Of a stretch of 56,377 bases of DNA, positions 27,949 to 33,357 are shown piece after piece. The translations under genes were made by a program, and so were the position numbers. The notes below the pieces were generated by a model. The model saw only the letters and a program-made list of their open reading frames with translations, ran no database searches and had not been told where the DNA came from. Position 1 is the first letter of the stretch; the number at the start of each line of letters is the position of its first letter. The stretch covers positions 1 to 56,377 of the forward strand of contig JAMOVS010000037.1 of assembly GCA_027061845.1 (NCBI GenBank), in the 5' to 3' direction. This stretch comes from Thermaceae bacterium (lineage in GTDB: Bacteria; Deinococcota; Deinococci; Deinococcales; Marinithermaceae).

Positions 27949-28676
27949 GGCCTTTCCTCCAGATCGTGGTCCAGGCGGACGAGCCGGTTTTCCGCGTCGA
28001 GAAGCCAGACCCCGCCGGCGTCCACCGCCAGGTCCCGGTAACGGCCGCGGCGCTCGCCGAGCCGGAGCCCGCTCAGGCTGTAGCGGAGTACGGCGGCGTC
28101 GGTGAGCAGGTAGAGGTCTTCGTAAAGTTCCCCCTTCCGGTACTCGGGGAGGGTAAAACGCGACCCCCCCGGCAGCCAGGCCTCGGGGCCCAAAAAGGCA
28201 AGCCGCTCCTGGTCGGCGACGACCGCGCGAAACCTCTCCTGGGAAAGCGGGGTTTCGTCTCGGTAGGGGTGGCCCTTCGGGTCCAGCCAGTAGACCTGGC
28301 CCCGGAAGAAGCGGGCGTCCTTCGCCGGGTAGGGAAGGAGCCCGGCGTCCTCGGTGAAGAGGCCGGCGTCAGTGCCGAGCGCCAGCCCGGGGCGGGCGTG
28401 CAGGAAGCGGGGGACGCCGGGGAGGTCGAAGACCGCGCTCAGCTCGCCGTGCTCGAAGACGTCGAGCTCGAAGGGGTAGGCCAGGTAGAGCCGGTCACCC
28501 CGGCGGTCGGCGAAAAGCGGCGGCGCCGGCAGGGGAAAGCCGCCCTCGAGCTCGGCCCAGGCCCCGACGATGCGGCCGCCGGGAACCAGCAGCACCGCCG
28601 GGGTATCGGCGGCGCGCGGGGCGCAGCCGACGAGGAGCAAAAGCAGCATGAAGAATGCCTGGAGCCTAGCCGGCAT
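27945..28676 (-). CDS. Predicted lipoprotein of unknown function inside the dcw cluster (243 aa)
   Basis: MPARLQAFFMLLLLLVGCAPRAADTP signal peptide with LVGC lipobox; blade-like repeats; translationally coupled to mraY and murF. Confidence 0.8.
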   Translation of the reverse strand: MPARLQAFFMLLLLLVGCAPRAADTPAVLLVPGGRIVGAWAELEGGFPLPAPPLFADRRGDRLYLAYPFELDVFEHGELSAVFDLPGVPRFLHARPGLALGTDAGLFTEDAGLLPYPAKDARFFRGQVYWLDPKGHPYRDETPLSQERFRAVVADQERLAFLGPEAWLPGGSRFTLPEYRKGELYEDLYLLTDAAVLRYSLSGLRLGERRGRYRDLAVDAGGVWLLDAENRLVRLDHDLEERP

Positions 28677-29961
28677 CGAAGACCTCCAGGAGCTTTTCGA
28701 AGCCGAGCGCCCGCGAGGCCTTCAGGTAGACGCTGTCCCCGGGGCGGAGGTGGGCCTTGAGGAGGGTGCTCGCCTCCTCGGTGCTTTGGGCGGCGAGCCC
28801 CCCCGCGACCTCGGCCATCAACTCGGCGTAGCCGCCGACGAAGACGACGAGATCGGCGACGCGGGCGGCCTCGAGGGCGGCCCGCTGGTGGTAAAGCGGC
28901 GCCTTTTCCCCGAGCTCCTTCATCTCACCGATCACCGCGACCTTGCGCCCCGGCTGGCGGGCGAGCACCTCGAGGCCCGCCGCCAGCGAGGCCGGGTTGG
29001 CGTTGTAGGCGTCGAAGAGCACCCGGTAGGGGCCGCGCCGCTGCACCTCCATCCGGCCGGGGGGAAGCTTGAGCCCGGCCAGGCGTTCGGCCACCTCGGC
29101 CGGCGGCCGGCCCAGGAGCTCGGCCACCGCCAGCGCCGCCAGGGCGGCCAGCGCCACCCCCCGGCCGGGGTAGGGGAGCCGGACCCGCAGGTTCTGGTAG
29201 CGAAACTCGCTGGCCTCGGGCAGGAGTACCAGGTCGCGCCCGGAAAAGCGCGCCCCGGGGGAAAACCCGTAGGTCTCGGCGGCGAGGCCGAGCCGCTCGG
29301 CGAGTTCGTGCTCCGCCAGCTTGAGGGGCGCGTGGCGGAGGAGCTTCGTCTTTTCCCGGGCCACCGCCTCCAGGCTCCCCAGGCCCTCAAGGTGGGCCGG
29401 GGCGACGGCGGTGAGCACGCCCAGGGTGGGGTCGGCGAGCGCCAGCAGGTCGTCCATCTCGCCGGGGCGGTCGATGCCGAGCTCGACCACGGCGCCCTGG
29501 GGGCGGCCTAAGTGCAGGAAGAAGCGGGCCAGCGCCGGCGGGGTGTTCAGGTTGCCCTCGGGGGCGGAAAAGCCGAGCCCCTGGGCGATCGCCTCCTTGG
29601 TGCTGGTCTTGCCCACGCTGCCGGTGACCCCGATCACCGGGTTCGGGAAGCGGTCGCGGAGCGCGCGGCCGAGCCGGACGAGCGCCCGGTAGGCGTCGGG
29701 GACGCGGACGGCCCGGGGGTGGGCCTGGTCGGTGAGCAGGAAGGCCGCCCCCTTGGCCGCCGCCTCGGCCAAGAAGGCGTTGCCGTGGGTCCTGGCCCCG
29801 GGCAGGGCGACGAAGGCCTCGCCGGCGGCGAGCTCCCGGGTGTCCCAGCGGAGGTCGCGCGCCGGCGCCGCTTCCGGCCCCGGCCGCCCGCCGGTCACCG
29901 CCGCCACCCAGGCGGGGTCGAGCTTGCCCTGCGTGCTTTGAGTATGTTGAGTCATATACAC
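28666..29961 (-). CDS. murF: UDP-N-acetylmuramoyl-tripeptide-D-alanyl-D-alanine ligase
   Basis: DTRELAAGEAFVALPGARTHGNAFLAEAAAKGA...GVTGSVGKTSTKEAIA...DAYNANPASLAAGLEVL. Confidence 0.96.
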   Translation of the reverse strand: MYMTQHTQSTQGKLDPAWVAAVTGGRPGPEAAPARDLRWDTRELAAGEAFVALPGARTHGNAFLAEAAAKGAAFLLTDQAHPRAVRVPDAYRALVRLGRALRDRFPNPVIGVTGSVGKTSTKEAIAQGLGFSAPEGNLNTPPALARFFLHLGRPQGAVVELGIDRPGEMDDLLALADPTLGVLTAVAPAHLEGLGSLEAVAREKTKLLRHAPLKLAEHELAERLGLAAETYGFSPGARFSGRDLVLLPEASEFRYQNLRVRLPYPGRGVALAALAALAVAELLGRPPAEVAERLAGLKLPPGRMEVQRRGPYRVLFDAYNANPASLAAGLEVLARQPGRKVAVIGEMKELGEKAPLYHQRAALEAARVADLVVFVGGYAELMAEVAGGLAAQSTEEASTLLKAHLRPGDSVYLKASRALGFEKLLEVFDAG

Positions 29962-29968
29962 AACACAC

Positions 29969-31329
29969 TCACCTAACGCCTAGCTTAGCACGATCCGGCG
30001 GCTGGCCCCAGAGGCTCAGAAGGCCGGCCGCCACGTCCTTGAACACCGGGGCCGCGAGCTTCGAGCCGTAGCGCTCCTCCGGCGGCACCTGGGGGTCGTA
30101 GAGCACCACCACCACGGTGGCCTGGGGCCGGTCGGCGGGGACGAAGCCGGCGAAGAGGGCCACCACCCGCTCGGGGTCGTAGCCCCCCTGGACGGCGATC
30201 TGGGCGGTGCCGGTCTTGCCCGCCAGGCGGTAGCCGGGGAGCCGGGCGGCGCGGGCCAGCCGGCGTTCGAGCATGCCCCGCAGCGCGCGCACCGTTTCCG
30301 GCCGGAAGACGCGCACCGAGAGCTCGGGCTCGTTGGCGTAGAGCCGCGGCGGGTGGTAGGTGCCGTCGGCCAGGGTGTTCATCGCCGCCGCCAGGTGGAG
30401 GGCGGTGACCGCGAATCCCTGACCGAAGGTGGCGTTGGCGTACTCCACCGGGCCCCAGGCCTCGAGCTCGGGGAAGAGCGGGCGGGCGGTCTGGCCCTGC
30501 AGCAGCCCGGGGTCGCTCAGGTGGAGCCGCTCGAAGTAGCGGTGCAGGGTGGACCGGGGCAGGCGCTCGGCCAGCAGGCTGATGCCGACGTTGGAGGAGT
30601 GGGCGAGGATCTCCTCCAGGGTCCAGCGCTCGGTCTTGTGCCAGCGCCAGTCGTGCACCCGCCGGTCGGCCACCTCCCGCCGGTAGGGCACCTCGATCCG
30701 CTCCTCCGGCCGGACCGCGCCGGTCTCCAGGAGCACCGCCGCGGTCAGTGCCTTGATCGTCGAGCCGGGTTCGATCAGGTGGAGGAAGGCGTAGTTGACC
30801 AGGCGGGGGTCCTCGTCGGGGGCGCCGCGGGGGCTTTGGGGGTCGAAGAAGGGGGCGTTGGCCGCCGCCAGGATGCGCCCGTCCCGGGCCAGCACCACCA
30901 CCGAGCCCCACTTCGCCTGGGCCCGCGCCATGCCGCGGGCCAGGGCCTCCTCGGCGATCGCCTGCACCCGCGAGTCGAGGGTGAGGACCACGTCCTTGCC
31001 CTGGGCCAGGACCAGGTTGCGCCGGCCCTCGACGCCGGCCAGCCCCTTGCCGTAGGTGCCGTGGGCCCGCTCGGTGTAGCCGACGACCTGTCCCGCCAGC
31101 TCGCCGAGCGGGTAGCGCCGCTCCCCCCGCCGCGGCGAGGTGGCCAGCACCGCCCCGTCGGCGCTCAGGATCCGGCCCCGGGGCTGGACCACCGGCGGCG
31201 GGGGCTGCAGGCTGGGGAAGACCTTCAGCTGCGGCAGGGTGAGGACGTAGGCGGCCCCGTAGAGGAGGACCACCAGCCAGGAGGGCAGGATGAAGAGGAT
31301 CGCCCAGACGCGGTGCAGGCCCACCCGGT

Positions 31330-31342
<13 letters not shown>
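29969..31342 (-). CDS. ftsI: Penicillin-binding protein 2/FtsI-type transpeptidase
   Basis: GRILSADGAVLATS; EPGSTIKALT (SxxK), SSN, KTGTAQ motifs. Confidence 0.95.
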
Positions 31343-32854
<1,512 letters not shown>

Positions 32855-32877: not shown

Positions 32878-32946
32878 GTGGGAAAGGTTAACACATTTTC
32901 CCACTTGGTTCTCCTTTTTTACCACAGGTCTACCCCAATTTCCCAC
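32878..32946 (-). promoter_or_regulatory. mraZ/dcw operator: three direct GTGGKAAA boxes at 21-bp period plus one inverted box; candidate -10 TAACCT
   Basis: Minus-strand boxes at 32939-32946, 32918-32925, 32897-32904; inverted GTGGGAAA on + at 32878-32885; TAACCT at 32885-32890 (minus). Confidence 0.75.
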
Positions 32947-32960
32947 CGGCGGGAGTCGGC

Positions 32961-32988
32961 AAAGCAAAACCGGGCCCGAAGGCCCGGT
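32961..32988 (-). terminator. Intrinsic terminator of rnpB
   Basis: Minus: ACCGGGCC-TTCG-GGCCCGGT then TTTGCTTT run; UUCG tetraloop. Confidence 0.9.
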
Positions 32989-32989
32989 C

Positions 32990-33357
<368 letters not shown>

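Follow-up and report, generated by a model that had tools for sequence, protein, structure and literature searches.

A probable variant MraZ operator with one box slot lost at the head of the dcw cluster of a Thermaceae bacterium

The sequence upstream of mraZ in a contig of a Thermaceae bacterium (the window, the whole stretch of 56,377 nucleotides analyzed) very probably serves the dcw cluster as its MraZ operator-promoter. MraZ would repress its own operon from this site by occluding RNA polymerase, and the 21-bp steps between the strong boxes represent a 10.5-bp grid from which one slot, at -21, has been lost and in which others are weakened. What was established directly is the presence of the boxes on their grid, their conservation and the fact that the array accompanies mraZ alone; binding by MraZ, docking of its ring and repression are the most likely interpretation of these features. 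The array is a lineage-specific variant of a known switch.

The array lies on the minus strand between the rnpB terminator and mraZ and reads, in order, GTGGGAAATT GGGGTAGACCT GTGGTAAAAA AGGAGAACCAA GTGGGAAAAT GTGTTAACCT TTCCCACGAGG. A sequence-only reading of the window had described three GTGGKAAA boxes 21 bp apart and an inverted copy, and the sequences and coordinates it gave were all correct. Numbered by their offset from the promoter box, these are slot -52 (GTGGGAAA, 32939..32946, minus strand), slot -31 (GTGGTAAA, 32918..32925, minus strand) and slot -10 (GTGGGAAA, 32897..32904, minus strand); the inverted box (GTGGGAAA, 32878..32885, plus strand) lies in the discriminator and predicted start region. 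Two elements had been overlooked. A weak box, GGGGTAGAC (GGGGTA, one mismatch to GTGGKA; 32928..32936, minus strand), fills slot -42 between the first two boxes, and the -10 element is the 3' part of another box position, slot 0 (GTGTTAACCT, 32885..32894, minus strand). The -10 hexamer TAACCT had been assigned the right coordinates (32890-32885, minus strand) but does not simply sit between the last two boxes, as had been proposed; it is fused with the final box of the array. Slot 0 of the window reads GTGTTA, which is weak as an MraZ box and good as an extended -10. Slot -21 (AGGAGAACCAA, 32905..32915, minus strand) holds no box and overlaps the expected position of a -35 element. A sigma-70 promoter scan did not find a -35/-10 pair, and an extended -10 without a -35 is preferred.

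GTGGKAAA occurs six times in the window, compared with 1.2 ± 1.1 times in shuffled sequences. The pattern GTGGKAAA-N13-GTGGKAAA gave two overlapping matches in the 1.56-Mb assembly (which is incomplete, at 77%), both of them in this array, and the reversed pattern gave none. Three exact copies at any equal spacing from 9 to 40 bp would arise with a chance of about 1e-7 per genome, as estimated from base composition, so three equally spaced copies are unexpected by chance.

The presumed cognate regulator is the 142-residue product of mraZ (32426..32854, minus strand), which scores 111.3 bits against TIGR00242 (cut-off 98.35) and contains two stretches of the Pfam MraZ family (PF02381), with a DxxxR motif in each domain. 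In an alignment, D11/R15 and D82/R86 are invariant among the window MraZ, E. coli MraZ and one solved MraZ from the PDB, and the first motif (D11/R15) also aligns to mycoplasma MraZ. Given these invariant residues, the boxes and the protein fit the known pairing of MraZ and operator. Solved relatives labelled MraZ are 1n0e, 9qlr, 9qlg and 9sx6. The first downstream dcw gene is rsmH (mraW; 31575..32429, TIGR00006); the cluster also includes a gene for an FtsI/PBP2-type transpeptidase (29969..31342), which matches PBP2/FtsI models best but stays below the curated cut-off of each, and murF (28666..29961, above the TIGR01143 cut-off), all on the minus strand. Upstream of mraZ lies rnpB, the class A RNase P RNA (32985..33356, minus strand; Rfam RF00010, 273.5 bits), separated from the mraZ promoter by a terminator-like hairpin (32968..32989, minus strand). 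Five further genomes of the genus share the rnpB-mraZ order, as does one genome from each of the family's two other genera, and in every one of the three family genera examined (window; L004-L009, L107) rnpB is the immediate 5' neighbor of mraZ, on the same strand.

Comparison across the order placed the array in context. We found mraZ in 108 of 111 genomes and read 106 upstream regions, which were aligned on the -10-containing box GTGnTAnnnT; a slot was called occupied when at least five of its six letters matched. No Deinococcus was identified among the 111 genomes, and a class-wide search returned the same 111. Nearly all 106 regions carry direct GTGGKA boxes on a grid of about 10.5 bp, at roughly -10.5, -21, -31.5, -42 and -52.5 from the promoter box, with the final box merging into an extended -10 (GTGnTAnnnT) at nearly all loci. 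Mean occupancy over 27 genera is 0.91, 0.92 and 0.80 at slots -10, -21 and -31, respectively, against 0.046 in shuffles. Boxes at slots -42 and -52 occur chiefly in the family of the window and in the family that includes Calidithermus (L037 and L047, which have the same sequence). One f2 genome also has no box at -21, and single loci elsewhere are without other slots. In two genera (f5g15 and f5g16; L101 and L104) mraZ is present with no recognizable box array upstream. In four f4g12 genomes (L114-L117) mraZ is joined by another mraZ-like gene, which has diverged (46-48% identity to the window MraZ) and has no MraZ array upstream.

The three-box pattern GTGGKA-N4/5-GTGGKA-N4/5-GTGnTA was matched in 43 of the 111 genomes, and its reversed control was matched in none. 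By coordinates every match is beside mraZ, with one exception; that match falls at a contig end, and mraZ of the same genome starts 35 bp into another contig. A second MraZ target was considered at GTGG boxes spaced 11, 11 and 10 bp before a GntR-family gene (G000:C146:1200-2700, L123), and was rejected. All that the orthologs retain is TGGTA-N6-TGGTA, and since the -10 makes up part of it, this looks like the promoter or operator of the GntR gene itself, with GTGG-type repeats that mimic an MraZ array. The other genome-wide pair matches that were inspected, which lie within long open frames or in short tandem repeats, were rejected as well. The proposal that this is an MraZ operator of the dcw cluster is very probably right, since the neighboring gene passes the MraZ equivalog cut-off and the upstream boxes are conserved across the order and exclusive to mraZ.

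Conservation in close relatives, on which the sequence-only reading had staked its claim, is found: in the six mraZ-bearing genomes of the genus, slots -31 and -10 are filled in every case and the 21-bp gap between them is fixed, while the spacers between boxes have diverged. Slot -31 is an invariant GTGGTA in five of these genomes, slot -52 is filled in five of the six, and slot -42 is G-rich in all five of the closest genomes. Slot -21 is empty in all six. Loss of slot -21, together with a weak slot -42, accounts for the 21-bp steps. The most divergent member of the genus (L008) has boxes at -41, -31, -10 and 0 and no inverted box; its spacing of 10, 21 and 10 bp shows the 21-bp step to be 10 + 11 bp minus one box. 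The step is most simply read as a derived loss of slot -21, which elsewhere is among the most conserved, and the "different geometry" that had been suggested is not supported. All boxes of the window (-52, -42, -31, -10 and 0) fall on the grid of about 10.5 bp of canonical MraZ arrays, and the apparent 21-bp period is such an array with weak or missing alternate boxes and not a new lattice.

The site immediately precedes mraZ, the gene that opens the dcw cluster, consists of direct repeats with a GTGG/TGGG core, and keeps a helical phase of about 10 bp in its offsets. At least three contiguous strong boxes are a common, though perhaps not a required, trait of MraZ operators; the window site lacks slot -21 and has only weak boxes at -42 and 0. 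The site is nevertheless orthologous and is counted as a variant MraZ operator.

We propose that direct GTGGKA boxes on one face of the helix, running from -52 to the promoter with the last fused to the extended -10, would allow a multimeric MraZ ring to dock and cover the -35/-10 region. RNA polymerase would thereby be excluded and MraZ would repress its own operon. Since the boxes of the Thermus branch stretch from about -60 as far as the -10 itself, the polymerase footprint would lie under a bound ring. In the genus of the window, the loss of slot -21 and the weakness of slots -42 and 0 leave strong boxes at -52, -31 and -10, and with strong boxes only at every second turn the affinity may be lower than that of a contiguous array. 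We only infer the sign of regulation, because MraZ is described as an activator in mycoplasmas; an activating role is compatible with the sequence, and autorepression by occlusion is our best inference.

The fixed gap between -31 and -10 would also be expected of a truly different operator, in which MraZ of this genus reads both the inverted box and a 21-bp lattice, the latter through alternate ring subunits or two rings; DNA bent around the start site would be one way to do so. The core of the inverted box, TCCCA[C/T], holds its offset (+11) in five of the six genus genomes while the leader beyond it diverges, with an identity of 0.80 over the seven discriminator columns compared with 0.38 further down; this also speaks for such an arrangement. 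We nevertheless regard it as improbable. Every position falls on the ordinary grid, slot -42 of the window holds a weak box, the remaining genome of the genus combines adjacent boxes (-41/-31 and -10/0) with the absence of an inverted box, and no other genus of the order has an inverted box at this offset. We give the same small chance to a sparse operator in which alternate ring subunits contact strong boxes at every second helical turn, with the inverted box over the start site; if true, this would be a binding mode not seen in contiguous arrays. It is very unlikely that the boxes serve another regulator or a structural element such as a G-quadruplex. The repeats are G-rich, and a G-quadruplex has been proposed for the S. 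aureus mraZ promoter (PMC11796246), but many boxes are GTGGTA, with just two consecutive G residues, and spacing and helical phase are kept across the order in an array that follows mraZ alone.

An operator role for the inverted box, which had been suggested, is doubtful. The copy is present and, as claimed, forms a perfect 8-bp inverted repeat with the proximal box, but that repeat is specific to the window genome. Four relatives share just TCCCA[C/T], so that conservation of the box amounts to 5-6 bp, is confined to five genomes of one genus and coincides with the discriminator. The box probably represents the promoter discriminator or initial transcribed sequence, kept for RNA polymerase and not for MraZ, a role that explains it more simply than an inverted MraZ contact would and that is compatible with an MraZ operator on the 10.5-bp grid. 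It directly follows the -10, where a discriminator must be; its outer bases vary, and conservation runs on past it into AGRGG. The perfect 8-bp match in the window points the other way. A conserved RNA hairpin at the transcript start was also considered and dropped; the stems were drawn by eye in single genomes and their register differs across relatives.

MraZ of E. coli represses the dcw promoter through repeats upstream of mraZ (as cited in PMC7761207); the operator there, GTGGGAAATT GTGGGGCAAA GTGGGAATAA, has the same letters at a 10-bp period. Pmra of E. coli, which reads GTGGGAAATTGTGGGGCAAAGTGGGAATAAGGGGT, resembles the window site in box letters, direct orientation and location upstream of mraZ. 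Its boxes are contiguous at 10 bp and, as stated in PMC7761207, lie downstream of the -10, whereas those of the window precede the -10, extend into it and lack one slot. In Burkholderia cenocepacia, MraZ binds the upstream region in EMSA, and four 7-nt repeats with 3-nt spacers were identified there (PMC7761207). These repeats likewise have a 10-bp period and lie upstream of mraZ in the MraZ-bound region, but all four are contiguous and span the start site, downstream of the -10. The Mollicutes site, (AAAGTGKN3)3, is bound by octameric MraZ (cited in PMC5282649); located at the dcw promoter, it likewise consists of direct repeats with a GTG core and a 10-bp period. Its box flanks differ, and the mycoplasma protein is the activator mentioned above, as described in PMC7761207. 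The mraZ arrays of the Thermus/Calidithermus type share with the window an identical grid and a final box fused to the extended -10, but they keep slot -21 and have extra boxes further downstream, either a pair at the start codon or one box in the leader at about +32.

The start-codon pair was seen at 43 of 103 loci (L010-L032, L098, L102 and others) and consists of two further boxes, 10 bp apart, immediately before the mraZ ATG. These loci belong to 11 genera, from three other families and, through the single g2 genome, from the family of the window. The strict form of the pair, GTGGGANNNNGTGGGARATG, has a single match in each of 26 genomes; 25 of these matches lie exactly at the mraZ ATG and the remaining one is within the G099 promoter array. 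The reversed control of this pattern gave no matches. The pair may be a second operator and is possibly more novel than the array of the window. Three other genera, of the Thermus/Calidithermus family, have in place of the pair one direct MraZ box in the 5' leader, +31 to +33 from the promoter box, a distance of three helical turns (L029, L039, L047, L048, L057, L080 and others of genera f4g10-g12). The genus of the window has neither.

The start-codon pair, conserved as it is in many relatives, prompts the question of whether a single ring bridges the two sites. From this comparison, the MraZ operator of the Thermus branch emerges as a 10.5-bp grid fused to an extended -10, and the finding of this array solely at mraZ suggests that MraZ of this branch may control one promoter. 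The natural, genus-wide loss of a highly conserved slot provides a ready-made test of the number of boxes that an MraZ ring needs.
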